From positions 124,001 to 188,000 of the forward strand of contig JAQXDZ010000081.1 in NCBI GenBank assembly GCA_029251085.1: 64,000 nucleotides of DNA. Direction: 5' to 3'. The notes under the pieces were generated by a model, which saw nothing but the letters and a program-made list of their open reading frames with translations, searched no databases and had not been told where the DNA came from. Shown in pieces: positions 3,263 through 16,183 of the stretch; the stretch's first letter is position 1, and each line of letters begins with the position of its first letter. Position numbers and translations under genes: made by a program. The stretch is from Mariniblastus sp. Lineage in GTDB: Bacteria > Planctomycetota > Planctomycetia > Pirellulales > Pirellulaceae.

Positions 3263-4057
3263 ATGTTCAACAACGTTCAACAACAAACTTATCCAGCACG
3301 ACCAACCGTTCGATTCGGGCTGTCGCTGCTAGAGTTGTTGGTGGTTCTCACAATTTTGATTGCGCTCGGCGGGATCGTAGTGTCGACTTTGCCTGGAATG
3401 CTCAAACGCACCCAGGTCGCGACCGCTGCGTCCAACATTCCAGAGATTGACGCAACCATTCGGCGGACATCTTTGCTCTCCCAAGGCAAGATTGGGAATC
3501 GTTTTGACGCTCTGGTCGCCGGATCCGATTCCCTCGATGGCAACATTCCGAGTTACATCGGCGGGGCAGAGATTTTTGAAACGACCAATTTAAGCGTTGC
3601 CGACGTGGGCGCCCTTCGAGAAATTGGCATTACCGAACTCGTCCCGGCAGCTACTGAAACAATCAACGCCACGTACAATTCCCACGACCAAACGCCCGTT
3701 GTAATCGGTTCTGACTCGAACGTTTGCAGTCTCAGCGATGATTCTGCGACAACGCTGCTTCCACAGGACTGGAACCTTGAGCCTGCGGAGAACGCGAAGT
3801 ACATCGTGATTGGATTAGGAGAGCAGTGTTCAATGGTCGGCGCCGGTGCAAAGGCTGCCTTCTCAGAGAGCCCAGTCCACTTTTCAGATAGCCGCGAACA
3901 AAGCCCGGACGACATGTACTCGCGGTACTTACTACTGGTCGAAATTAGATCAGTTGACGAACTTAAGTCGGTTGCCCGTTATGTCGGAGCAGCGATTCCC
4001 GGTCGAGATGGAATTCACAGTGTCTCCAAGGAACTGGAGGACTATTACACGGATTAG
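3263..4057 (+). CDS. Type II secretion / type IV pilus-like pseudopilin 1
   Basis: This is a prepilin-like subunit predicted to assemble into the periplasmic pseudopilus. The ATG at 3263 gives a 19-residue basic leader ending in RFG, the prepilin peptidase cleavage site, followed by LSLLELLVVLTILIAL with Glu at mature position 5. The hydrophobic N-terminal helix is continued by an amphipathic helix (MLKRTQVATAASNIPEIDATIRR). The remaining 190 residues show no family I recognise and contain three scattered Cys. The TTG at 3260 directly before the ATG is unlikely to be used. It is the first gene of a run of same-strand secretion genes (34-bp gap to the next pseudopilin). With no GspG-type DPWG core, it may be a minor pseudopilin. 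Confidence 0.85.
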   Translation: MFNNVQQQTYPARPTVRFGLSLLELLVVLTILIALGGIVVSTLPGMLKRTQVATAASNIPEIDATIRRTSLLSQGKIGNRFDALVAGSDSLDGNIPSYIGGAEIFETTNLSVADVGALREIGITELVPAATETINATYNSHDQTPVVIGSDSNVCSLSDDSATTLLPQDWNLEPAENAKYIVIGLGEQCSMVGAGAKAAFSESPVHFSDSREQSPDDMYSRYLLLVEIRSVDELKSVARYVGAAIPGRDGIHSVSKELEDYYTD

Positions 4058-4090
4058 CTTGCAACAGTTTTTTCGTGTTGGTAACAAATC

Positions 4091-4801
4091 ATGGTCTACA
4101 ACAGCACACACAAAAATCAACAGACTTCGCAAACCACCTCGATCAAGGTTTGCCAAAACCGCGGCTCGCTTCGCTGTTTGAACCAGCGTGGTTTGACGCT
4201 TCTCGAATTATTAGTCGTGTTGGTTATTTTAATCGCGACTGCTTTGATCATTTTCCCCACGTTTAACAACATCGACATAGTTTCCCCCACGGGAGAGGCG
4301 AACAGCCCTGTTGAGATTGCAACCCAAGCAACGCTCAACACGGTTCGAGAGGCAATGGCCGGTGAAGATGGGGTCATTGAGTCACTATCGCACAAAACGA
4401 ACGCGCTCCCTCGGGAAATCAATGACTTGCTCAAAGAGGACGCGCCGGCGCACATGGAAGAAGCCGCGCCCGAACTTAAGACTTACGACCCAGTCAACAA
4501 AATTGGCTGGCGTGGGCCCTACGTTCACGCGACAGGTCGTAACGAAACAGGCGAACCTACGATCGTAGACGGCTGGGGAAATGAACTTGAATTACAAGTT
4601 GACTTTGATCAAGACGGAACCATCAATCAAACGGAATCAAAATTCATCCGTGTCGTTTCAGCGGGTCCCAACGGCGAGATTGAAACGCCCGATGATATTG
4701 CGAACATGAAACCGGGGGAGAACGAGGTCAATGAACTCACCCTTTCAGAGTGTGGTGACGACTTAGTGATGTTCCTCCGCTACCCTGATAATCGCAAGTA
4801 A
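4091..4801 (+). CDS. gspG: GspG-like pseudopilin with an EF-hand-like loop
   Basis: A prepilin with a long basic leader (34 residues ending NQRG) followed by LTLLELLVVLVILIATA, with the conserved Glu at mature position 5. The C-terminal domain has the GspG hallmarks GWRGPY, DGWGNELELQ and VVSAGPNGEIETPDDI, which match the core and calcium-binding segment of the major pseudopilin. Between them, residues 171-182 read DFDQDGTINQTE, a perfect 12-position EF-hand loop (D1, D3, D5, G6, I8, E12). Such a loop is not a usual part of GspG. It is probably the major pseudopilin of the operon. The ATG at 4091 is the first available in frame; the leader is longer than usual. Calcium binding is inferred from the loop pattern. 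Confidence 0.85.
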   Translation: MVYNSTHKNQQTSQTTSIKVCQNRGSLRCLNQRGLTLLELLVVLVILIATALIIFPTFNNIDIVSPTGEANSPVEIATQATLNTVREAMAGEDGVIESLSHKTNALPREINDLLKEDAPAHMEEAAPELKTYDPVNKIGWRGPYVHATGRNETGEPTIVDGWGNELELQVDFDQDGTINQTESKFIRVVSAGPNGEIETPDDIANMKPGENEVNELTLSECGDDLVMFLRYPDNRK

Positions 4802-4820
4802 CAACGGAACTACACCCGGT

Positions 4821-4855
4821 GCTAAGACGCCGGCCTGTTAAACGCCGGCCCTAGC
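4821..4855 (+). other. GC-rich two-step stem-loop before the third pseudopilin
   Basis: GCCGGC at 4829-4834 pairs with GCCGGC at 4844-4849 across a 9-nt loop, and GCTA at 4821-4824 can pair with TAGC at 4852-4855. The same core also forms a direct repeat of ACGCCGGCC. No T-tract follows, so this is not a terminator. It lies 20 nt upstream of the ATG at 4875 and may set the ratio of pseudopilins through mRNA processing or stability. Confidence 0.5.
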
Positions 4856-4874
4856 AATACCGAGGACCAATGAG

Positions 4875-5771
4875 ATGGCACGCATTTGCTCAGCCAAACT
4901 TAGTCGGCTCTTCCCCAATCAGCGATTCCGTTCCGGCTTGACTCTCCTCGAGTTAATGGTCGTCCTCGTAATTTTAGCCATCGTTGCAACCGTCGCTGTT
5001 CAATCACTGCAACCCCAAGTCGACAGCCAGAGATTTGAATCCGCTGCAAGGTTACTGGAAGAAATCAAAGTTGCAACGCTCGGTCCCGCCCAAAAATTCC
5101 AGCTTGATGGCACGCCAATTGTCTCCGGTTTCGTCGCTGATGTTGGACGGTTTCCACGAATCGAAACCAACGACGAAGACCCAGAGGAATATCTATCACT
5201 TAGCGAGCTATGGTCAAACGAAAACCAACTCGCAATTCAATTTCCATTTCAATTTCGTGCCGGCCCAGCGGAACCCGAGGACTACTCTGCCATTCGACTC
5301 CCTTGCGGTTGGAGAGGGCCTTATCTGCAACTTCCAATCGGAACCTCCAAGCTTGTCGATCCGTGGGGACGGCCTCCCGAGACAGTCGTCGACGAAATGG
5401 GGACGCTCGGACGGTTGCAAATTACGATTCCGTTATCTAACAATCAAACCGAACCTCAGGTGCTGGCGGCGAATTTGTCAGGTGGAAAAGTTCAAGTAAC
5501 CGGTAAAGTCCTCCTCGATCGCCCCGAAAGTGCTACCGTTCGGATTGCATTGTTAACTCCCGACCCAAATTCCTCCTTGACGTCGCTCGTCGTATATGAC
5601 GATGAAGACAAACAACCGGGGTCTTTCTTGTTCAGTCGCGTTCCTGTTGGTTTTCGAGCTCTTGTCGCTGATGTCAACGGGAAACGGCAAATTAAATACA
5701 TGCAAATTACTCCCAATGGCCCACCCATCATTTTTGATTTTCAAGCGCGGGCGTCGGCCATCAACGAATAA
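4875..5771 (+). CDS. GspG-type pseudopilin with extra C-terminal beta domain
   Basis: A prepilin with a 21-residue leader ending FRSG, then LTLLELMVVLVILAIVATVAV with Glu at mature position 5 and a long amphipathic helix (SQRFESAARLLEEIKVAT). The middle holds the GspG-like signature CGWRGPYLQLP plus LVDPWGRPP. From about residue 195 the protein carries an additional all-beta segment (GKVQVTGKVLLDRPESATVRIALL ... FSRVPVGFRALVADVNGKRQIKYMQI), resembling a carboxypeptidase-regulatory-like beta sandwich. It is longer (298 residues) than typical pseudopilins (about 150). An additional domain on a pseudopilin could form the tip or bind substrate; this is inference. The ATG is preceded by GAGGACCAATGAG. 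Confidence 0.85.
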   Translation: MARICSAKLSRLFPNQRFRSGLTLLELMVVLVILAIVATVAVQSLQPQVDSQRFESAARLLEEIKVATLGPAQKFQLDGTPIVSGFVADVGRFPRIETNDEDPEEYLSLSELWSNENQLAIQFPFQFRAGPAEPEDYSAIRLPCGWRGPYLQLPIGTSKLVDPWGRPPETVVDEMGTLGRLQITIPLSNNQTEPQVLAANLSGGKVQVTGKVLLDRPESATVRIALLTPDPNSSLTSLVVYDDEDKQPGSFLFSRVPVGFRALVADVNGKRQIKYMQITPNGPPIIFDFQARASAINE

Positions 5772-5884
5772 GACAGTTCCAAGTTAAACCACACTTTGAG
5801 ACCAATCCCGCTTCATTAATTAAATCGCGGCAAACGCAGTCGGCAACCTCGACTAAACCGCAAATCGCTGAAATCTGCACCGCA

Positions 5885-7219
5885 ATGGCCAAACGATCTG
5901 ATATCTCGATTCTGCTTTTTTTTGATCGCCAGATGGTGCGCGCTGATTTTGGCAAAGACATCTCCCAACCCAACTTTTATGTACAGGAAACGGTAGATGT
6001 CGAATCGACTTTATACGAAGCCATCATTCAAATCACCCAAAATCAACCGAGACTTGGCAGTCGGACACTGGTGCTCTCCGCGGATGTTTGGTCTCAGATC
6101 GTTCTCCTCCCTAAACTTAGCGTAAGCGGAATCGAACCCAGCGATTTAGAGGAGGTCCTGAAGTTCGAAGCGGAAACCCTGTCCGGCATCGACATTGACG
6201 AAATCTCACTCGCCTCAACGAATCTTGGTGTCGAAGACGACTATCAAAAATTCTGGGTTAGCGCAATCAGAAACACAGACCTGGACGCGATTAACGAACA
6301 CCTGGAATCCCTTGGTTGCCGCGACATCCTCATTGCTCACCCCTCCGGTTTTGCAGCAAATACTGCAGTTCGAAGCAATCGTCGAACAGTCGAGGTCTGG
6401 GAAGACTTGGTTTTTCACCTCACCGACAATTCAACGCGACTCGAACACGTCAAGCAACGCACGACTGAGCCACTCGTTTCCAATGAACCTATCCTCACGG
6501 GTAGTCAAAATATCGAACTGGCCGAAGAGCATGCAACTTTTGAGCATCTGACCGACGACGCGACCGCTAAACGATGGGCCGGCACTGTTGCGAACAACTA
6601 CCGAAAACGCCTGGACTCAATCCTGGCCCCTCGGCTCAGACATTTTGATCGCACGCCCACACGCCCAATCCGGCATATTTTTTCAGGAATCATCGCTCTA
6701 CTTGTTGTTGGATTTTGTTTTTGGCACGGACAGTATGTCAAACAGTACAATCAAAGCCTACAAGCCAAGATCGCTGAAATAGAACTGCCAGCTGCTGAGA
6801 AAAAGAAAAACGATGGCCAACTGATTCAAATTTTGGAAAAACGCGCTGAGGTCGAAACAGCAGTTACCGCCCTTGGGGATGACCTGAAACGCATCACCTT
6901 TTTCCTTGAGAGTCAAAACAATCGCTTCGCCACGCTGCTGGAACTGCTGATTGAAATGCGAACCGAAGATCTCGTAATTGAGCAAGTCGAGGGAACAGAA
7001 GAGGGCATTCTCATTTCAGGAGTTTCACTCAATGGTGAAGCCGCTCAGGGGCTTGCAAAAAGTCTTCGAGAACGCTCCGTCAAACTCGGCTGGGCGGTGA
7101 ATCCAGCGCGGCAGGAGGGTCAACAAAAACTCACCACAGGCGGCCCCTGGGATTACAACATTCTACTAGCAGAAACAGGGCCATTTGAATCCGCCGTCCA
7201 GCCTCGAAAAAAGAACTGA
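5885..7219 (+). CDS. gspL: GspL-like protein (PilM-PilN fusion), inner-membrane platform
   Basis: The first 200 residues look like the actin/PilM-like cytoplasmic half of GspL: a DIDEISL segment after VLKFEAETLSG, as in PilM proteins, and a following KFWVSAIRNTDLDAINEHLESLG. A single membrane span lies near residues 263-283 (HIFSGIIALLVVGFCFW). It is followed by a coiled coil and a PilN-like ferredoxin-fold end (FATLLELLIEMRTEDLVIEQVEG). It thus combines PilM and PilN in one chain, as GspL does, and should connect the GspE ATPase to the periplasmic parts of the machine. It is divergent from model GspL, so the assignment rests on architecture, position and weak motif similarity. The next gene is the expected GspM/PilO partner. 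Confidence 0.75.
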   Translation: MAKRSDISILLFFDRQMVRADFGKDISQPNFYVQETVDVESTLYEAIIQITQNQPRLGSRTLVLSADVWSQIVLLPKLSVSGIEPSDLEEVLKFEAETLSGIDIDEISLASTNLGVEDDYQKFWVSAIRNTDLDAINEHLESLGCRDILIAHPSGFAANTAVRSNRRTVEVWEDLVFHLTDNSTRLEHVKQRTTEPLVSNEPILTGSQNIELAEEHATFEHLTDDATAKRWAGTVANNYRKRLDSILAPRLRHFDRTPTRPIRHIFSGIIALLVVGFCFWHGQYVKQYNQSLQAKIAEIELPAAEKKKNDGQLIQILEKRAEVETAVTALGDDLKRITFFLESQNNRFATLLELLIEMRTEDLVIEQVEGTEEGILISGVSLNGEAAQGLAKSLRERSVKLGWAVNPARQEGQQKLTTGGPWDYNILLAETGPFESAVQPRKKN

Positions 7220-7309
7220 ATACCAACGAACCATCGTCCTGCCTCGTGGCACTTCCCCCCGCGATTACAAACTACCAAAAAGATAAATCTTCAAACCTGA
7301 CAAACCTTC

Positions 7310-7924
7310 ATGGCGATCACCCCACTCAAAGATAATTCAAAACGAGAACGGTTTCTGTTGATGCTGTTTCCGGCAGCTTTGATATTGGCGGTATACTCCG
7401 TTGTATTCGCTATTCCGTTGCGTCAGGAAAAATCAAAAATTGAGGCCGAGTACGGTACTGCAATGCAGATAGCAGTTTCCGAGGAAGCCGCTCAGCTTTC
7501 AAAACAATATCTCGAAAACGAAAAAGAAAGCCTCGAAAGACTGAGAACGCGAGAATCCAATTCCAAAGAACAAATCCGAGAATTGAGCCAAAGCTGGAGA
7601 AGCCGAAAATCTCGCCTCGACACCTTCGAGAAAATCACCGAATTAATGCGTGACTACAATCTTTCCATCGTCTCACAAGGTGGTACGGAAAGCATGACGG
7701 TCTCCTCCTACATGCGTGATTTATTTGAAATGATGAACGAACAGGCTGTTCAAGAACCGGTGGAGTTCTGGCCGGTGGAAGTCAAAGGGGCTTTTTTCGA
7801 TGTGCTGAAATTCCTCACCGATGTCAACACTGTCGCCACTAGCATCATCCCGGTTTCGATTACAATGAAACCAGACCCTGAAAACAAGACTCAAAAAATG
7901 TGGACGATCGTTTTCGTTATTTAA
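7310..7924 (+). CDS. GspM/PilO-like inner-membrane protein
   Basis: A short cytoplasmic N-terminus is followed by one membrane helix (residues about 15-36, LMLFPAALILAVYSVVFAIP), a long coiled coil (about residues 40-110, rich in E, K, S and R) and a small alpha/beta C-terminal domain of about 90 residues (PVEFWPVEVKGAFFDVLKFLTDV). This is the architecture of PilO and GspM, which pair with PilN/GspL in the inner-membrane platform. Sequence similarity alone is weak; the call depends on order directly after the GspL-like gene and before the ATPases. Confidence 0.7.
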   Translation: MAITPLKDNSKRERFLLMLFPAALILAVYSVVFAIPLRQEKSKIEAEYGTAMQIAVSEEAAQLSKQYLENEKESLERLRTRESNSKEQIRELSQSWRSRKSRLDTFEKITELMRDYNLSIVSQGGTESMTVSSYMRDLFEMMNEQAVQEPVEFWPVEVKGAFFDVLKFLTDVNTVATSIIPVSITMKPDPENKTQKMWTIVFVI

Positions 7925-7978
7925 CGAACGAAACTTCAAATCAGGAGCGGCCAGACTGCCTATCGCTGGAAAAGAAAA

Positions 7979-9112
7979 ATGACCCCCGATAACTCATCCC
8001 CTGAATTCCTAGACGTTCTTTTAAGACGCTCTATTGATTCTAATGCCTCGGACATCCACTGCTCGGTAGGGGAACCGATCCATTTTCGGATCGATGGGAT
8101 GCTTAATAAATTAGATTCCTCAGAGCTTGAGCAAAATAAATTCTCTTCCCAATTGGCAGAGGAGTTCTCAAACTCCATACTCTCAGCGTCACAGCAGAAA
8201 CAGCTTGCCTTACGAGGGTCAGTGGATGGTGCATTCTCCATCGACAGCGATCATCGATTCCGATTTAACATCTACCGTCGGCAAGGGCAGATTTCTTTTT
8301 CCTTCCGCAGACTATCCAACACCATCCCCACCCTTGAGCAACTCGGATTAAACCCACGGCTTTACGACAAATGTTCGCTCCAAGATGGCCTCGTTCTCGT
8401 GGTTGGGCCGACGGGTTCAGGGAAAAGTACGACCATCGCTTCGATGATCGATCGCATTAATGCTCAACGGGCAAGTCACATCATTACGCTTGAAGATCCG
8501 ATCGAGTTTATTCACCCATCGCAAAAGTCATTGGTCAACCAACGACAAATTGGCGTCGATGTTGAAAACTTCCACCAAGCATTAGTCGACGCAGTCCGTC
8601 AAGATCCAGATATAATTTTGGTGGGGGAATTAAGGGACGTTGATACGATCCGAACTGCGATCACGGCTGCTGAAACAGGACACCTCGTGTTTGCGTCCCT
8701 CCACGCAGGAGACTGCAAGACCGCGATCGAACGCCTGATCAGCGCTTACCCTGCCGAAGAACAAGAACTCGCCCAAAGACTGGTCGCCACGGTTCTGAGA
8801 ACAATCGTTGTCCAACATCTGTTGCCTCGCCTTGCCGTCAAAGATCAAACTCCCGATCCGGCAGCAGTTTCCCAACGAGTGCTCGCTAGTGAGGTCATGC
8901 ATGCCAACCAGGCTGTTTCAAATTTAATTGCTAACGCCAACTTGAATCAACTCTCTTCGATTATTCAAAACAGCAACGAAGAAGGGATGTGGACTCTCGA
9001 CGACAGCCTTGCACGATTGTGGCGACAACGCTTGATTTCCGAACAGACTGCTTTTGGTCTCGCACGCAATCCAGAAATCCTGTCACAGATCTCACTTCGC
9101 ACTCGAGCTTGA
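7979..9112 (+). CDS. pilT: PilT-type retraction ATPase
   Basis: A hexameric secretion ATPase of the PilT subfamily, expected to drive pilus disassembly. The N-terminal PAS-like part has ASDIHCSVGEPIHFRIDG. Walker A is GPTGSGKS (residues 143-150), the Asp box is ITLEDPIEF, Walker B is DPDIILVGELRD and the His box is VFASLHAGD. PilT-specific features are clear: YPAEEQELAQRLV, AVSNLIANANLNQL in place of the AIRNLIREGK helix, and SNEEGMWTLDDSLARLW. No tetra-cysteine zinc motif is present, unlike the neighbouring GspE/PilB-type ATPase. Classical type II secretion operons lack a PilT, so its presence here is notable. The substitution in the AIRNLIR box may change its activity. It ends 10 bp before the ATG of the next ATPase gene. 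Confidence 0.9.
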   Translation: MTPDNSSPEFLDVLLRRSIDSNASDIHCSVGEPIHFRIDGMLNKLDSSELEQNKFSSQLAEEFSNSILSASQQKQLALRGSVDGAFSIDSDHRFRFNIYRRQGQISFSFRRLSNTIPTLEQLGLNPRLYDKCSLQDGLVLVVGPTGSGKSTTIASMIDRINAQRASHIITLEDPIEFIHPSQKSLVNQRQIGVDVENFHQALVDAVRQDPDIILVGELRDVDTIRTAITAAETGHLVFASLHAGDCKTAIERLISAYPAEEQELAQRLVATVLRTIVVQHLLPRLAVKDQTPDPAAVSQRVLASEVMHANQAVSNLIANANLNQLSSIIQNSNEEGMWTLDDSLARLWRQRLISEQTAFGLARNPEILSQISLRTRA

Positions 9113-9122
9113 ACGAACACCT

Positions 9123-10628
9123 ATGTCCGACGTCAGTAATAACACTGAACTACTCAATATGGATCAAGTCAAAATTGATCCAGTTTGGGCATTGCGCATC
9201 CCGGCCAACCTTGCGACGCGCCGGCAGGTGCTACCGTTTACATTACAGAATGACCGAGTCCTAATTGCCTGCAAAGACCTAAACGATGAGCAGAGCATCC
9301 AGGCCGTCCGACGTTACATCTCTCATCCAGTCGATGTGGTTGCCGCCGATCCCGAAACACTATTCGAAGCGATTCAACGAATCTTTCAGGATACCGTGAG
9401 GTGGAACGGCAACCAAAGTGAACCGGTGCGAATCCAATTTACCGGCACCCAGGTTGATCCGGAGTCTGAAAACATCGTTGCCGTTGGCGACGAAATTTTC
9501 CACGCTGCGTTGATTCGACAGGCGACCGACATTCATATTGAGCCCTCTTCCATCGACCTTCGAATCCGCCTACGGGTAGACGGATTACTTGATGACTATC
9601 GCCAGTTCCCAATTGCTGTTCACCAACCACTGCTTTCTCGATTAAAAGTGATGTCGGGAATGGACATTGCGGAACGCCGGGCACCACAAGACGGTCGCTT
9701 CACACTTAGCTCTGACCATAACAGCGAAATTGACATCCGTACCGCAACGATCCCAACCAAACACGGGGAACGGATGACGCTACGTTTACTCGCGACGCAA
9801 ACACAAGACTTGACCCTTGGCCGTTTGGGGATGTCTTCACCAGACCTCGCTCAGTTTGAACGGGTAATTGACCGACCCAATGGGCTCATTTTAATGACAG
9901 GGCCGACCGGTTGTGGAAAAAGCACCACACTTTACGGAGCAATCAGATCCCTGATTAATCGAAAGTCGCTCAATGTCATTACCATCGAAGATCCAGTTGA
10001 ATACGTCATTGACGGAATCTCGCAAGTCGAGGTCGACGCGAATGATAAAGTTAGTTTCCACAAGGCGTTGCGAAGTTCTTTACGCCACGACCCCGACGTC
10101 TTGATGATTGGTGAGATTCGAGATGAAGAAACTGCAGAGACTGCCATCCGAGCGGCACTAACTGGCCACCTCGTTTTCACCACACTTCACGCTAACTCTG
10201 CAGTCGGCGCCATCACGCGACTGGCCGATATGGGAATCAAACCGTTCTTAATTGGAGCTGTTTCCCGGATGTTTGCCGCCCAGCGGCTGGTAAGAAAACT
10301 CTGCCAAAAATGCAAATTAGCTTACGCCATGCCGGAGGCCGAAGCTATTTCACTCGCTTGCCCTGAGTTAGCCGGCACCACGGTCTACCGCGCCGGAGGC
10401 TGCCGCTATTGTGCAGGCACTGGATTCATGGGCCGCATCGGATTGTTTGAGTTTATTGTTTACGATCAAGAAATGGCTCGGGTAGTCGCCAGCCGGCCAG
10501 ACGAAACCTACATCCAACAACTCCTGAACGAAAGACAGTTACCTGATTTGATGGACGACAGCATCGCGAAACTTACCAAGGGATTAACATCCGTCCAACA
10601 AATCGCCACCGTCATTAGCCCTTACTAA
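9123..10628 (+). CDS. gspE: GspE/PilB-type assembly ATPase
   Basis: The assembly motor of the machine. The protein has an N-terminal T2SSE N1-like domain (residues about 1-90), then the paired RecA-like core: ADIHIEPSS, Walker A GPTGCGKSTT (about residue 260), Asp box VITIEDPVEY, Walker B HDPDVLMIGEIRD and His box VFTTLHANS. The zinc tetra-cysteine motif characteristic of GspE/PilB is present (CQKC, then CRYC about 33 residues later). An upstream extension of the frame to 9054 lies inside the preceding gene and is not used; the ATG at 9123 starts 10 bp after the previous stop, indicating tight coupling. Length (501 residues) is normal. Confidence 0.93.
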   Translation: MSDVSNNTELLNMDQVKIDPVWALRIPANLATRRQVLPFTLQNDRVLIACKDLNDEQSIQAVRRYISHPVDVVAADPETLFEAIQRIFQDTVRWNGNQSEPVRIQFTGTQVDPESENIVAVGDEIFHAALIRQATDIHIEPSSIDLRIRLRVDGLLDDYRQFPIAVHQPLLSRLKVMSGMDIAERRAPQDGRFTLSSDHNSEIDIRTATIPTKHGERMTLRLLATQTQDLTLGRLGMSSPDLAQFERVIDRPNGLILMTGPTGCGKSTTLYGAIRSLINRKSLNVITIEDPVEYVIDGISQVEVDANDKVSFHKALRSSLRHDPDVLMIGEIRDEETAETAIRAALTGHLVFTTLHANSAVGAITRLADMGIKPFLIGAVSRMFAAQRLVRKLCQKCKLAYAMPEAEAISLACPELAGTTVYRAGGCRYCAGTGFMGRIGLFEFIVYDQEMARVVASRPDETYIQQLLNERQLPDLMDDSIAKLTKGLTSVQQIATVISPY

Positions 10629-10632
10629 CACC

Positions 10633-11838
10633 ATGCCAGAATTTCGTTACAAAGCAAGAGACGCGACTGGCGGACCGCGTGCGGGGCTGGTTGACGCAAC
10701 CAGTCGCTCTGCTGCCGCGTCATTGCTGCGAAGTCGCGGGCTGATTGTGATTGGCGTGGCACCGGTCAATGCACCGGTTGAATCGAACCTTAAATTAGAC
10801 TTTTCTCAGTACCTTCGGCCCCGGGCAGTCGACGTCGAACTTAGCCTCCAACAACTCTCGATGATGCTCAAGGGCGGCATGCCACTCCTCTCCGGACTCA
10901 TCGCCCTCACGGACGAAGCACCTCGCAAGTCTCTCGGCAAGATTTGGAAGGTAATCGTTAACAACATCCAATCGGGCGACAGCCTCTCGCAAGCGATGAG
11001 TAAACATCGCTGTTTCCCTGAATTCACGATTCAACTGATTCGAGTCGGTGAAAGAACCGGTGAACTTCCACCTGTGCTTGAGAGAGCCGTTGCTACCATG
11101 CGTTCGCGAAGACGTGGAATCCAAGAATTCTCATCGGCCTTAGTCTACCCCCTGTTAGTGCTCCTGATTGCTGTGGGCGTAACTGCTTACATGGTTGTCT
11201 ACCTAATCCCACGACTTGAGATTTACCTCCAAAGCCTTGGAAAAGACATGCCGGCGATGACTCAACGACTAGTCGACACCTCTAGTTTCATGAGGCAGTA
11301 TTACCCACTGGTTGGAATCATCCTCATCGGGATCGCAGTTTTTTCAATCACGGCCTATCGCTCAAAAGAAGGCAGAATGTGGATCGACCGAAACGCACTT
11401 CGAATTCCAATTGTCGGAACACTGTTCAAGCTGTGTGAAACTTCAACGTTTGCGAGAAGTTTAAGCGTTATGCTTGAGAGTGGGATCACGCTGATTGATG
11501 GGTTGGGAACGGTTGAAAAACTTTTATACAATCGTTTTACTGCAAAAACCGTCAACAACGCTCGGGCATCAATCATTCAAGGCGGGAATTTCGCCGATGC
11601 AATCGATGTGGGTAATGCATTTGCGCCGATGTTAAAAAAGATGGTTTCGGTCGGACAACAATCAGGAGATCTCAAAGGGGTCCTTGAAGAAGTTGCTGAC
11701 TTCCACGAAGCCCAATTTCATACATCAGTCAAAAGGCTGAACTCTATTTTGACTCCGTTGCTAACGATTGGAATCGGTTTGGTCGTTGGCTATGTCTACA
11801 TTTCATTTTTCGTTGCACTACTCGCAGCCGGCAATTAG
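10633..11838 (+). CDS. gspF: GspF/PilC inner-membrane platform protein
   Basis: A 401-residue polytopic protein with the two repeated T2SSF domains of GspF/PilC. The start MPEFRYKARDATGGPRAG and the motif RVGERTGELPPVLERAV in the first repeat, and VSVGQQSGDLKGVLEEVADFHE in the second, are diagnostic. Membrane spans are visible near residues 169-190, 223-243 and 373-398. It anchors the ATPases to the pseudopilus base. Only 4 bp separate it from the GspE-type gene, so the two are translationally coupled. Confidence 0.93.
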   Translation: MPEFRYKARDATGGPRAGLVDATSRSAAASLLRSRGLIVIGVAPVNAPVESNLKLDFSQYLRPRAVDVELSLQQLSMMLKGGMPLLSGLIALTDEAPRKSLGKIWKVIVNNIQSGDSLSQAMSKHRCFPEFTIQLIRVGERTGELPPVLERAVATMRSRRRGIQEFSSALVYPLLVLLIAVGVTAYMVVYLIPRLEIYLQSLGKDMPAMTQRLVDTSSFMRQYYPLVGIILIGIAVFSITAYRSKEGRMWIDRNALRIPIVGTLFKLCETSTFARSLSVMLESGITLIDGLGTVEKLLYNRFTAKTVNNARASIIQGGNFADAIDVGNAFAPMLKKMVSVGQQSGDLKGVLEEVADFHEAQFHTSVKRLNSILTPLLTIGIGLVVGYVYISFFVALLAAGN

Positions 11839-11902
11839 CCTCAGCACCCTCTAAAAAAATCGCGTCCAATCACTAACCCAGCACTTTACCTGAAAGCACA
11901 TT

Positions 11903-12427
11903 ATGAATAATTCAAAAACGATGTTCGTCGTGCTTTCTACGATTGGCTTAATTGGTCTTTTTGTGCTCGCATCCACCACCGACGCACAAGAGAAACAGGA
12001 CCCGACCGCACCATCCACAGTTATCGAGCAAACACTCTCAAAAATTCGAGACGTCGAAAAGCTTGACACCTTCGTTCAACAGAACGCCGCTCTTGTTCAA
12101 GAAAACAAAAAACTAAAAGCTGACATTGCTAGCATTCAAAAGCAAATCGCTAAGCTAACAAAAGACTTGGAATTACAGACGATTAATTTACGGAAGCAAT
12201 TGCTGCAAATGCCTACGTTTAACGTCCAATCCAAGATTATTAACGGAGACCGCAGCGCCGCAATTCTAAAATCTAAGAACACAATTATTAGAATCCGGAA
12301 CAACACGAAGTTGTCGGTGCCAGTATCCGATGGGGTTTGGGTCTTGATGGAAGTCAAGAATATCTCTAAAGAAATGATCGAGTTGTACTTTCCAGAGCTG
12401 GAACGTACCGTTTATTTGTACGATTAA
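11903..12427 (+). CDS. Short GspC/PilP-like connector protein (candidate)
   Basis: A 174-residue protein with an N-terminal hydrophobic segment (residues 7-27, VVLSTIGLIGLFVLAST) that is either a signal peptide or an anchor. A DPTAPS stretch, a Lys/Gln-rich coiled coil (about residues 55-105) and a small beta domain (about 115-174) follow. The beta domain (ingdrsAAIL, IRNNTKLSVPVSDGVWVLMEV, ELERTVYLYD) has the strand spacing of the HR domain of GspC and of PilP, which link the inner-membrane platform to the secretin. It sits exactly where gspC/pilP belongs, directly upstream of the secretin gene. Primary sequence identity to known GspC is not evident, so the function is inferred. Confidence 0.5.
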   Translation: MNNSKTMFVVLSTIGLIGLFVLASTTDAQEKQDPTAPSTVIEQTLSKIRDVEKLDTFVQQNAALVQENKKLKADIASIQKQIAKLTKDLELQTINLRKQLLQMPTFNVQSKIINGDRSAAILKSKNTIIRIRNNTKLSVPVSDGVWVLMEVKNISKEMIELYFPELERTVYLYD

Positions 12428-12443
12428 CCCTCCCAATCTGCCC

Positions 12444-12478
12444 AATTCACTGCGAGGCATTACTCGCTTTGGTGAATT
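12444..12478 (+). promoter_or_regulatory. Two-step hairpin abutting the secretin ribosome binding site
   Basis: AATTCAC (12444-12450) pairs with GTGAATT (12472-12478), enclosing GCGAG (12452-12456) paired with CTCGC (12463-12467) across a GCATTA loop. The structure ends one base before GGAG (12480-12483), the Shine-Dalgarno of the secretin ATG at 12489. No T-tract is present. It could control translation or protect the downstream mRNA. Confidence 0.5.
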
Positions 12479-12488
12479 TGGAGAAACC

Positions 12489-14555
12489 ATGACACGGATG
12501 TTACTGAACGCCTGGGCGCTCGCATTTCGCTGCTCTCCCTTGCTCATGACTGCATTCTTATTTTTCGCTATCCAGGCGGAAGGTCGTAGTTTGTGTGCGC
12601 AGGTCGTCAATCCGACCCCCAACGCGCCCACGCCTATCATTCAAGAAGCCCCGCCGGTTACTCCAGCGATCGATCCTGACAATCTCGAGCCTTTAATCGA
12701 CACCGACGACCCTCTCTTAATGTCGTTCTCGGATAAATTAGTCATTCCAGACAAATCAATTGAGATGATTGATTTTCGAGATCAAGAGCTCGGCGATGCG
12801 ATGCGGCTTTTCTCTGAACAATCTGGAATCAACATTGTTCCATCGACAGAAGCCACCAAGGTTAAGATCAACCTTTTTCTCCGCGACGTCAAAGCGATGG
12901 ACGTCTTGGAGAACCTAACCAAAACCCATGATCTGTATTACCGCATTGACGAAAACTCTGGGGTAATCCGAATCCATACCACCGAAGAGTATGAAGAGAA
13001 CCTTGCAAGTTTTCGTGATGAACAGACGCGCGTTTTCACTCTACTTTACCCCAATCCAGTAGATGCGGCTGTGGCGATTCGCGACCTGTTTGGTGACCGC
13101 GTCGTCCTCAACTTTGGTGTCGGCGACCAGGACTCCGTACTTGATCTCGTCCACCGACTTAATCGTTTTGATTTAGTTGACAGCCGCAACCTTGGTCTCG
13201 GCTCATTTCAGGGACAGACTTATGGTGGCCGTTCATTTAATTCCCTTAATGGAATGGGGGGCTTCAGTACAAACCCCGCGTACCGCAACAGTCGCAATCG
13301 AGCGATTGATGAAACTGAGCCGTTAAGCAATTTGTCTTCCGATGAAATCCAGCAACTAATTGACGCAATCAATGAACGGTCGACGCGTAACGAGCTTCCA
13401 GAGAATCTCGATGACCCAATTTCAAAACTGCTCAAAGAACGGCAAGCGACGATTTATGTAACGGTGGTTCGCAGAAACAATCAAGTCGTTGTCCGGACCG
13501 GTGACGATGCGACGATGAAACAAATTGAGACGCTAATCCTAAGCCTCGACGTCCCCACGCCCTTAGTTTTACTCGAACTCAAAGTCATGAGGATTCTTCT
13601 CGATGATGAATTCCGAAGTGTATTTGACTACCAATATTCGGACGGCTCGACCACTGCCGGCAGCTTTACAACAGGCGACATTTTACCAACGCCATCTGAT
13701 AAGTTTTCTGGTGAAGCTAAAAAAATTGCTTCGATGATCCCCGGGGGTTCGGTTTTAAATCAAGGTGATTTTACATTCCAGGTCGTCAGCAACAACTTCC
13801 GTGCAAGGATGCAATTACTAGAAGATGACAACCGAGTCACCATCCTCAACTCTCCGCTACTTTTAACCGCCAACAACGAAGTGAGTCGAATTTTCATCGG
13901 TGAAACGATCCCGTTGACCATTGGTTTCAGTCCCACACAGATTGTCGGCACCTCCGCGACTAGCTCCAACACTATCGCTGGCACTCCGATCACAGAACTA
14001 CGCGACATTGGACAATCATTGCTGATCACTCCCAGCATTAACGCCGACCGCACGGTTACCTTGCGGGTCGTTCAAGAAAATGCCCAACGAGTCGTTGATG
14101 GTGGAAAAATCCCCGTCCTCAGCCTCACCAACTCCACACAAGAATTTGTAGTCGACACAGTAACCCGCAGCACAGTCAGCGGCACCTTTGTCGCCAAAGA
14201 CGGTCTGGCAGTAGTGATGGGCGGCCTGATCGAAGACGAGATCTCTGATCAGCGTCAGAAAGTACCCGGCCTGGGAAAACTACCAGTCTTCGGTTTCTTT
14301 TTTCGCAAACAAAACACAAGCCGCATTCGGCGTGAACTGGTTGTCATGATAAGACCTTATGTATTCAACACCCCCTCGGAGTCTGCTGCCATCAGTCAAG
14401 ATTTATTGCAGCAACTAAGTGTGCACCCAACCGCCTTAAGCGGAGAACAAACCCTCTCAACCTTTTCACCTGATGAAGTTCTTCAGACGGAACTGGACGA
14501 CTGTGGACTGCATAAATTTTTCCAATTCCACAACATCGTACCGCGAAACTACTAA
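12489..14555 (+). CDS. gspD: GspD/PilQ-type outer-membrane secretin
   Basis: The outer-membrane channel of the system. After a signal peptide (residues about 15-38) comes a Pro-rich stretch. Next is an N0/STN domain (IEMIDFRDQELGDAMRLFSEQ ... GINIVPSTEATKVKINLFL), then N1- and N3-like ring domains (RVFTLLYPNPVDAAVAIRDLF; QATIYVTVVRRNNQVVVRTG ... LDVPTPLVLLELKV). The secretin core is complete: RMQLLEDDNRVTILNSPLLLTANN, IGETIPLTIGF, LLITPSINAD, then VVMGGLIEDEISDQRQKVPGLGKLPVFG, and RRELVVMIRPYVF. An Asn/Ser-rich linker lies between ring domains. Length (688 residues) is normal. GGAG stands five bases before the ATG. Confidence 0.93.
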   Translation: MTRMLLNAWALAFRCSPLLMTAFLFFAIQAEGRSLCAQVVNPTPNAPTPIIQEAPPVTPAIDPDNLEPLIDTDDPLLMSFSDKLVIPDKSIEMIDFRDQELGDAMRLFSEQSGINIVPSTEATKVKINLFLRDVKAMDVLENLTKTHDLYYRIDENSGVIRIHTTEEYEENLASFRDEQTRVFTLLYPNPVDAAVAIRDLFGDRVVLNFGVGDQDSVLDLVHRLNRFDLVDSRNLGLGSFQGQTYGGRSFNSLNGMGGFSTNPAYRNSRNRAIDETEPLSNLSSDEIQQLIDAINERSTRNELPENLDDPISKLLKERQATIYVTVVRRNNQVVVRTGDDATMKQIETLILSLDVPTPLVLLELKVMRILLDDEFRSVFDYQYSDGSTTAGSFTTGDILPTPSDKFSGEAKKIASMIPGGSVLNQGDFTFQVVSNNFRARMQLLEDDNRVTILNSPLLLTANNEVSRIFIGETIPLTIGFSPTQIVGTSATSSNTIAGTPITELRDIGQSLLITPSINADRTVTLRVVQENAQRVVDGGKIPVLSLTNSTQEFVVDTVTRSTVSGTFVAKDGLAVVMGGLIEDEISDQRQKVPGLGKLPVFGFFFRKQNTSRIRRELVVMIRPYVFNTPSESAAISQDLLQQLSVHPTALSGEQTLSTFSPDEVLQTELDDCGLHKFFQFHNIVPRNY

Positions 14556-14587
14556 GAGTTTTTACTTCGGCAACCGTCCCATTAATT

Positions 14588-16183
14588 TTGATTGCTCGAT
14601 CCTTGAAAAACACCAACCCCACAGACCAACACCAGTCCCTCCGAAAAGCAATCGCCTTTCGATTTGTGGGGGCATTGTGTCTTGTCATGGGGATTGGATT
14701 GAGCGGATGCTCGCTGTTCAACATTGATTCAGAAAATTCAGACACCGATCTTCTTAAAAAGTCAATTATAGACACCGCTTCGGTTCCTTCACCAAACGAG
14801 CACTACGATTCATCGGGCAAACCTATCCCGGAAAAAATCAGACTTGCCGGCGGCCTCACTCTGGGCGATACCGGAAACCTCGCCTTTACTGCGGAATCGC
14901 TCGGCGGCGTCGTCAAAGAAATGATTGAATCTGAGCGATGGAATTCGCTTCGCAACATGGTCGCCCTGTACCCTGACATCACCACAAAAATAATGTGGGG
15001 AGAAGGCTCAAACCAACTTTCTGCCAGCCACCGAGAGGTTCTTGCCCGAGCGTTGGATCTACAATGGACTAGTGGAAAGCAAGACTCCTGGCAGTCGTTT
15101 GTTAAGCAGCAATACAATCAGGGAAAAGCAGGAAGCTTCCTCGAAAACAGAAACCGATTCCTTGCGTTCCTGCAAATCAATGACACGAAGTCAGCATTTT
15201 CAATTCAGTTGTCCAAAAGTGCGGAAAAAAGCAACTCACTAATCGCGAAAGCAGAATCCTTGCGACTGGAAGGAATCGCTCACTTAATGAACGAGGACTA
15301 CGAAAACAGTATCAAGTCCTTAAGTCGAGCTAGAACTCTTCAGGAACAATCCCAACCAATTCAGGCGGCTCATACCGGACTTTTGCTTGGCGAAGCATTT
15401 CGGCATGCAGATCAACTAGAACAATGGCAAAAGAGCTGGCTCACAGCAATTGAACTCCAGAGTCAGTATGCCGTTGAGGGCGAACTCAAAGACCCGGCTT
15501 TCTGGAGCAAAGCGGCTTTCCTAAGACCCGTCTCTACCGAGTGGCCAGCAGAAGTGATTGGACGGTTAGAACACTCTCTTCGAAATGAAAATCTCGAATT
15601 TGGCTTTAGCGAATCCTCTATCGACGAAGCAGTGGTTTGGGCGACCATTGGCATCCAAAGCCTCAAACGCCATGAATCTCAAAACTCCATTCTGGCGTTT
15701 AAGAAATCAGAAGCTCTCGTCAATGGCGTTTCGCTGCGAGAGGAACTGCAAATGCAACAGGCACTCGCGATGATCGACGGAGGTCAGCAGGGGCCTGCAT
15801 CAGCAATTCTTCTAAGACTTGGATCTCAACCATCGCTTTTGGGAGATCGAGCCAAGGCAATCCTGGCGACACTAAAATTGCAAAACGGCAGCCTCGCACA
15901 AGGCATGAACCTACTTCAGTCCGCAATCAAAACCTCAAGCCAGTGGCCAGCTCATGAACGACTACGTGCTCAAGCTGATTATGGATTGGCCTATTTGATG
16001 CGAGGCCGGGAAGAGCAGGGGATTGGCTTGCTAAATTACGTTTACGACGAATTTATTAAACTGCAAAGCTATGAAGACGCCTCGCAATGCCTCGCCAACA
16101 TTGCAACCTACTATGAAAAAACTGATCAAAAAGCCAAGCACCGAATCGCTCTAAAAAAATTACAGTCATTCGAAATCAGGTAA
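14588..16183 (+). CDS. TPR-containing lipoprotein at the end of the secretion operon
   Basis: A 531-residue protein starting with TTG at 14588, the first usable start after an in-frame stop. A basic N-terminus (SLRKAIAFRF) and hydrophobic stretch end in the lipobox LSGC, with Cys near residue 41, so it should be lipidated. The rest is helical with several TPR-like repeats (RLEGIAHLMNEDYENSIKSL; LQMQQALAMIDGGQQGPASAIL; ADYGLAYLMRGREEQGIGLL). A TPR lipoprotein downstream of a secretin gene recalls pilotins (PilF/PilW), which help secretins assemble, but it is much larger, so that role is only a hypothesis. The gap from the secretin stop is 32 bp. Confidence 0.7.
   Translation: MIARSLKNTNPTDQHQSLRKAIAFRFVGALCLVMGIGLSGCSLFNIDSENSDTDLLKKSIIDTASVPSPNEHYDSSGKPIPEKIRLAGGLTLGDTGNLAFTAESLGGVVKEMIESERWNSLRNMVALYPDITTKIMWGEGSNQLSASHREVLARALDLQWTSGKQDSWQSFVKQQYNQGKAGSFLENRNRFLAFLQINDTKSAFSIQLSKSAEKSNSLIAKAESLRLEGIAHLMNEDYENSIKSLSRARTLQEQSQPIQAAHTGLLLGEAFRHADQLEQWQKSWLTAIELQSQYAVEGELKDPAFWSKAAFLRPVSTEWPAEVIGRLEHSLRNENLEFGFSESSIDEAVVWATIGIQSLKRHESQNSILAFKKSEALVNGVSLREELQMQQALAMIDGGQQGPASAILLRLGSQPSLLGDRAKAILATLKLQNGSLAQGMNLLQSAIKTSSQWPAHERLRAQADYGLAYLMRGREEQGIGLLNYVYDEFIKLQSYEDASQCLANIATYYEKTDQKAKHRIALKKLQSFEIR

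Follow-up and report, generated by a model that had tools for sequence, protein, structure and literature searches.

The DNA considered here, a 64,000-nucleotide stretch of a Mariniblastus sp. contig (hereafter the window; G000:C10:124001-188000, from an assembly of 5.49 Mb in 171 contigs), carries at positions 3263-16183 one compact operon that combines a gene set resembling that of a type II secretion system (T2SS) with a genuine PilT. All eleven open reading frames (ORFs) lie on the plus strand, with intergenic gaps of 4 to 113 bases, in the order three prepilin-like proteins, a GspL-like protein, a GspM-like protein, PilT, a GspE-type ATPase, GspF, a GspC/PilP-like protein, a secretin, and a putative lipoprotein. 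The first prepilin-like ORF starts with the ATG at 3263, and PilT, which ends at 9112, stands directly upstream of the likely ATG of the GspE-type gene at 9123. This composition, a T2SS-like gene set with a true PilT directly before a GspE-type ATPase, had been proposed in a preliminary description of the sequence and is confirmed by profile scores, a phylogenetic tree, and recurrence; because the same arrangement recurs in other genomes, a chance arrangement is very unlikely. Promoter and terminator scans gave results no better than shuffles. The features of the operon are as follows.

3263..4057, +, p1, large prepilin-like protein of 264 amino acids, first of three (lineage profile match of 264 bits, but the window sequence is in the profile)
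4091..4801, +, p2, GspG-type pseudopilin, candidate major subunit (N_methyl 23.3 bits, cutoff 21.2)
4875..5771, +, p3, larger pseudopilin related to p2 (N_methyl 29.5 bits, cutoff 21.2)
5885..7219, +, GspL-like protein with an actin-like domain, a long helix with a probable membrane span, and a ferredoxin-like C-terminal domain in a single chain (predicted fold)
7310..7924, +, GspM/PilO-like small membrane protein (conserved position, weak profile matches only)
7979..9112, +, PilT-family ATPase, inferred retraction motor (TIGR01420 376.1 bits, cutoff 319.1; tree)
9123..10628, +, GspE/PilB-type assembly ATPase with an MshEN-like N-terminal domain and two CxxC motifs (T2SSE 384 bits, MshEN E 1e-12)
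10633..11838, +, GspF/PilC-type inner-membrane platform (T2SSF E 4.1e-48)
11903..12427, +, GspC/PilP-like protein of 174 amino acids with an N-terminal hydrophobic segment, a coiled coil, and a C-terminal homology region (HR)-type β domain, residues 103-174 (predicted fold)
12489..14555, +, secretin, outer-membrane channel (Secretin E 3.5e-33, Secretin_N 8.5e-8)
14588..16183, +, putative lipoprotein with a possible pilotin role (LSGC lipobox and tetratricopeptide-repeat-like character read by eye)

The first ATPase scores 376.1 bits on the NCBI PilT/PilU model compared with 138 bits on that for GspE, and the nine best matches of a profile of its PilT relatives in the PDB are all PilT or PilU chains. 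In a tree of 69 rows, rooted on five GspE/PilB rows, 27 of the 28 rows labelled as belonging to the system form a single clade (SH-like approximate likelihood ratio test, SH-aLRT, 100). The clade sits among the PilTs and not inside GspE/PilB, the placement that the preliminary description had named as the one that would speak against it. A mislabelled GspE or PilB is thus excluded by the cutoff, the tree, and the PDB matches, and at the level of sequence the first ATPase is a true PilT. The 28th row, L093 from an Acidimicrobiaceae, has the order PilT-E-F; both of its ATPases fall among those of type IV pili, and it was dropped as a member of the lineage.

Assembly ATPase, platform, and secretin

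The assembly ATPase falls below both NCBI equivalog cutoffs, with 456 bits for GspE (cutoff 630) and 436 bits for PilB (cutoff 676). Together with its relatives it forms one clade of 28 sequences (support 100/100) in a tree of 79 rows, from which L199 HofB, L207, and a second Colwellia ATPase of L193 (score <400) were left out and in which L191 was relabelled from other to system. The GspF platforms of the lineage likewise form a clade (SH-aLRT 96), which includes one very long type IVb pilus branch, and 11 lineage secretins group together (SH-aLRT 99); four of the 15 system secretins tried (L038, L040, L168, and L192) and some references were dropped from the secretin tree as having no motif or being duplicates. 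The GspE of the same-family genome G002 (L045) is 79% identical to that of an uncultured Pirellulaceae metagenome-assembled genome (MAG; L054). In the secretin of the Thiohalocapsa locus (L194:12383-14665), a C-terminal stretch matches DUF3438 and TraK_C.

In the 79-row tree, the lineage GspE is sister to five proteobacterial T2SS GspE proteins (95/91). In a cleaner approximately unbiased (AU) test, a tree in which the lineage is joined to the larger group that contains the type IVa pilus (T4aP) was 7.6 log units better and was not rejected (p 0.64). An earlier AU rejection (p 1.6e-59) is not used, because its constraint also split interleaved T2SS rows apart. The lineage is not yet to be filed as T2SS or as T4aP.

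The genome contains 13 T2SSE-domain matches in total. On contig 140, ORFs that we read as GspE-, F-, G-, H-, I-, J-, K-, and L-like lie in a row, and this T2SS-like locus showed no PilT over the 17 kb inspected. The five of these ORFs that were scanned all score below the NCBI cutoffs: GspE (618.5 bits, cutoff 630) and GspG (84.9, cutoff 88.85) miss narrowly, and GspK (80.2, cutoff 130), GspH (30.1, cutoff 80), and GspI (19.2, cutoff 44) also fall short. Contig 154 carries a T4aP-like pilB-pilT-pilB-pilC locus with its own PilT, which is 75% identical to the PilT of Rhodopirellula solitaria; the one in G055 (L051) is 90% identical. The contig 140 and 154 loci rule out that the operon at 3263-16183 is the genome's only T2SS-like locus or its T4aP-like locus. 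Judged from their trees, the ATPases, platform, and secretin of the operon are a separate lineage and were not pieced together from the T2SS-like and T4aP-like loci of the same genome. Of the hybrid proposed in the preliminary description, the T2SS-like set with PilT stands.

A further PilT-family ATPase is encoded on contig 76 (L003:8264-12668), beside two GspE/PilB-like proteins in which no Walker A or Walker B pattern was found and which keep the CxxC motifs, that is, pseudo-ATPases. PilTs of this type, 72-77% identical to the one on contig 76, are found in eight further genomes (L286, L287, and L289-L293 among the loci), and a pseudo-ATPase was found beside PilT in seven of these eight, L288 being the exception.

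Recurrence and probable shared history of PilT and GspE

Because T4aP-like planctomycete loci (pilB-pilT-pilB-pilC) also have PilT followed by a PilB-type gene, adjacency of PilT and an ATPase is not diagnostic by itself, and loci were counted only if the ATPase scores best with the lineage profile. Some PilT match is present in all 60 genomes of the same-family sample, and the neighbours of its 14 listed PilT loci were examined. PilT followed by a lineage-type ATPase was observed at nine loci in eight genomes (G027, G001, G053 twice, G038, G039, G031, G002, and G005). The loci of G004, G006, and G055 are pilB-pilT-pilB-pilC, that of G044 has no GspE beside PilT, and that of G016, where the contig ends just after PilT, was not counted either way. 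A PilT profile run against 294 genomes of the phylum gave 14 genomes with at least 419 bits, the next scoring 409.5; two of the 14 are in the profile, and the other 12 all have PilT followed by a lineage-type ATPase. The order prepilin-L-M-PilT-E-F-D was found in none of the eight lower-scoring PilT loci examined alongside. Separately, in family f25 of the phylum sample, L174, L175, and L179 combine PilT-family ORFs of 553-571 amino acids with a GspF-like gene encoded on the other strand; no GspE was recognised in the stretch.

The GspE profile A5, run against 288 phylum genomes, matched 24 genomes at E <=1e-165. The lineage GspE is present in 21 of the 288 (22 loci, at least 590 bits); the 554-558-bit matches in G064, G297, and G325 score best as type IV pilus PilB, two of them with pilB-pilT-pilB, and were not counted. 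Among the 22 loci, seven match by construction, because they or near relatives of theirs contributed rows to the A5 profile (the window, G115, G122, G276, and G177 directly). The preliminary description had suggested that the PilT-GspE order be compared across planctomycete genomes, and the same order does recur, with PilT directly upstream of GspE at 15 of the 22 loci; at three of the 15 (G238, G293, and G249:C144) PilT is cut by the contig end. The PilT state of the G222 locus, with 40 bases upstream only, was not called (1 of 22), and the six loci without PilT are considered below. G124 (L162), which has PilT with a GspE truncated at the contig end, is outside the 21-genome count. The best match in the Rhodopirellula solitaria assembly, at 514 bits, is below the lineage scores.

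Outside the phylum, six of 274 genomes in a sample of the gammaproteobacterial class, that of the Neptuniibacter genome G356, have the lineage (G356 itself is among the six and in the A5 profile), with PilT present at four of the six loci. A verrucomicrobial MAG locus (L052) has PilT-E-F, and no further part was recognised there. Gene order is the same at most lineage loci. The Colwellia MAG G358 has a PilT-bearing lineage locus (L193, contig 15) in which GspF is followed downstream by an extra, divergent PilB-like ATPase; its other copy of the system (L191, contig 21) lacks PilT.

Trees of PilT and GspE from 30 loci, with the short L268 and L257 left out, are strongly correlated (Mantel r 0.87, with none of 2000 permutations as high). 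The two trees have 12 of 27 splits in common, among them one of 16/14 and one that sets apart a gammaproteobacterial group of six, and this agreement indicates that the machine and its PilT were probably inherited together. In a tree of 48 rows, the nine loci that lack PilT are dispersed and need eight changes, compared with a mean of 8.4 for shuffled labels. These comparisons point to a PilT that was probably present early, inherited with the machine, and lost repeatedly; repeated gain of PilT is less likely.

Prepilins, scaffold, and connector

The three prepilin-like proteins differ in how closely they resemble GspG. Over its globular part, the p2 group matches a GspG profile with a probability of 97.3% (hhalign, E 1.8e-11, 101 columns), and the p2 sequence, read by eye, contains GWRGPY, DGWG, SAGPNG, and GDD; its score on TIGR01710 is 17.1 bits (cutoff 88.85). 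p3 is related to p2 (97%) and to GspG at 68%. The N terminus of p1 is of prepilin type by eye only, Pfam N_methyl giving 11.9 bits, below the cutoff of 21.2. The match of p1 to GspG is 66% over 36 columns, and its globular part is not clearly related to GspG or p2. The preliminary description had seen no major pilin with a short tail in the locus, and indeed none of p1-p3 is a PilA-type pilin, the small-pilin profile giving 0.4-1.6% (1.6% for p2) in a comparison that covers the locus, not the rest of the genome. The GspG and small-pilin profiles comprise seven and nine sequences, respectively, with members picked by gene neighbourhood and size. GspH, the sole minor-pseudopilin profile compared, matches p1-p3 at 0.1-0.2%, and none of the three is above the NCBI GspH, GspI, or GspK cutoffs. 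As had also been noted earlier, no prepilin peptidase is recognised within the locus; two A24 peptidase matches lie elsewhere in the genome, on contigs 98 and 62, and the machine probably depends on a peptidase encoded outside the operon.

Neither the GspL-like nor the GspM-like gene has a Pfam match above the cutoff. The AlphaFold model of the GspL-like protein (nine sequences; mean confidence pLDDT 77.6, predicted template modelling score 0.56) has as its best Foldseek matches PulL (5tkw, E 2.0e-8) and the cytoplasmic domain of EpsL (1yf5, E 5.9e-8). In VIA comparisons, PilM (Z 11.9) and EpsL (11.4) are tied; for the C-terminal domain, PilO scores 9.3, and EpsL and PulL 8.5. The predicted fusion of cytoplasmic and periplasmic domains in one chain is a GspL trait. 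The GspM-like protein matches T2SSM weakly (14.9 bits, cutoff 27.8), and its relative in L192 has a weak PilO match (E 0.003).

The GspC/PilP-like gene was absent from the gene list of the preliminary description. Its AlphaFold model, built with seven sequences, has block pLDDT values of 87-96 across the domain, and the first VIA match is the GspC HR domain (3oss_C, Z 9.4, 1.8 Å over 62 residues). Ranks 2-9 comprise PulC (7.7), PilP (7.3), GspB, and pilus-machine entries (Z 7.7-6.4), the best other row scoring 6.1. Foldseek alone gave no significant match (E 0.37), and the assignment rests on the VIA list. The putative lipoprotein at the end of the operon has no Pfam match at E 0.01 and is kept in part of the lineage, with relatives in L038 and L040 and weaker ones in L164, L165, L265, and L266.

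Relation to known systems and possible function

With the T2SS, for which the Escherichia coli K-12 gsp operon served as the yardstick, the locus shares a single operon that holds D-, E-, F-, G-, and L-type parts along with an HR-type part resembling GspC or PilP. It differs in having PilT in the operon, three prepilins rather than five, and no peptidase recognised in the locus, in the scores of its GspE and GspD, which are below the NCBI equivalog cutoffs, and in the placement of its ATPase, platform, and secretin in clades of their own. Most descriptions of type II secretion include a single assembly ATPase and no motor for retraction. With the T4aP (PilB/PilT/PilC/PilMNOPQ) the locus has in common PilT, an assembly ATPase, a platform, a secretin, and a connector that resembles PilP or GspC, but it lacks a PilA-type prepilin, carries PilM- and PilN-type domains in one chain, and has both ATPases in their own clades. 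Moreover, no assembly ATPase stands upstream of PilT, in contrast to the pilB-pilT-pilC and pilB-pilT-pilB-pilC orders of type IV pilus loci. The MSHA pilus (L197 and L202, named from gene order) is likewise a filament machine with GspE/PilB, PilC, and a secretin, and differs in gene order and assembly-ATPase clade. The type IVb pilus locus of an IncI plasmid (L206) shares an assembly ATPase, platform, secretin, and prepilin, but its ATPase is very distant (branch 5.9). BfpF of the bundle-forming pilus is an operon-borne retraction ATPase in the type IVb group.

Within the type IV filament superfamily the locus is a genuine, conserved variant, and the most apt description is an endopilus machine of T2SS-like build that carries a PilT of its own. 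Because closely similar gene sets recur in distant bacteria, it appears to form a separate branch among pilus and secretion systems, one that has received little study. The interpretation that we prefer, and to which we give about an even chance of being correct, is that of a distinct, probably old type IV filament lineage in which a GspG-type pseudopilus is assembled by GspE and withdrawn by the machine's own PilT. GspE and GspF would polymerise a short p2/p3 pseudopilus toward the machine's own secretin, with the scaffold proteins (L and M) and the GspC/PilP-type connector steering it into that channel. PilT would then act on the same platform and depolymerise the pseudopilus, so that the whole would work as a piston whose extension and withdrawal are both powered. 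The prepilin heads are large and may serve to cap the fibre or to bind cargo, and the likeliest use would be outward movement of a folded protein, as in type II secretion, with a powered reset; operons without PilT might rely on a passive reset of the pseudopilus or on a borrowed PilT. Secretion is favoured because the locus has a GspG-type prepilin and a fused L protein; retraction, the outward direction, and the secretion of cargo are what we infer from these sequences.

Several observations weigh against this interpretation. The predicted scaffold folds match PilM and PilO about as well as GspL, and for the modelled domain of 11903-12427 PilP is close behind GspC. None of p1-p3 exceeds any NCBI GspG-K cutoff, and a firm sisterhood of the assembly ATPase to proteobacterial GspE was withdrawn after the cleaner AU test. 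PilT is absent at six of the 22 loci of the phylum scan (G096, G077, G168, G183, G256, and G249:C452, the last judged from only 917 bases upstream of GspE) and at two of the six gammaproteobacterial loci (G521 and G610), and in G053 both loci show rearrangement, F or the secretin lying on the opposite strand. The C-terminal AIRNLIRE motif of PilT matters for retraction, and its position reads AVSNLIAN in the window; exact AIRNLIRE occurs in 11 of 37 other PilT rows (motif tallies covered these and 27 system rows, with the nine commonest variants per motif). In addition, no conserved cargo gene emerged, as no non-system family is present in more than five of 40 locus flanks, and the ABC transporters beside L040, L044, L164, and L265 are of different kinds.

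Some of these features would fit a surface type IV pilus, in which PilT would retract an exposed p2/p3 filament for attachment or motility without secretion and the T2SS-like appearance would reflect shared ancestry. PilT is typical of T4aP, the assembly ATPase scores nearly equally as GspE (456) and PilB (436), the scaffold is about as close to PilM and PilO as to GspL, and the AU test does not reject a tree in which the assembly ATPase joins the group that contains T4aP. However, there is no PilA-type prepilin in the locus, where p2 is GspG-like, the L protein is fused, and a T4aP-like locus with a PilT of its own is already present in the genome; we regard a surface pilus as unlikely, if a serious contender. 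It would also be conceivable that the machine is an ordinary T2SS whose PilT is a regulator or assembly factor and no longer a retraction motor, as the altered AIRNLIRE motif and the PilT-less loci, scattered over the tree with other parts kept, might suggest. The intact Walker A, Walker B, Asp box, and His box of the window PilT and its long co-inheritance with GspE make such a role rather improbable.

The uptake of DNA or polysaccharide, raised in the preliminary description, would have the filament bind the polymer or DNA and PilT pull it through the secretin. The large prepilin heads would suit such a device, and in planctomycetes 12 nm pili-like fibres bind gold-labelled dextran (Planctopirus limnophila and Gemmata obscuriglobus; PMC5394234). 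In the accessible portion of that paper, however, these fibres have no genes assigned, and its main text contains none of the terms "secretin", "type II secretion", and "type IV". The argument from planctomycete uptake is weak because the fibres are without assigned genes in that portion, the lineage is present in only 21 of 288 phylum genomes, and it also occurs outside the planctomycetes, in Gammaproteobacteria. The families looked at in the locus flanks, the same survey that gave none in more than five of 40, do not suggest polymer or DNA uptake either. No result supports the idea, which rests on analogy, and we consider uptake distinctly improbable.

Prepilin-motif proteins are reported to be expanded in planctomycetes (PMC8567305), and pilT and pilB of Rhodopirellula baltica are mentioned in PMC2754498. 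No published description of such a PilT-bearing arrangement was found in the open-access literature, subscription papers being largely outside the search. Whether a motor withdraws a secretion endopilus could be tested directly in a lineage that combines a co-inherited PilT with a GspG-type pseudopilin and a GspL-type protein, and the loci with and without PilT provide a natural comparison. Finally, a gene of 176-203 amino acids, whose copy in L283 has no Pfam match at E 0.01, lies beside the system in three gammaproteobacterial loci (L193:16662-17273, L283:16227-16835, and L284:15387-15917).

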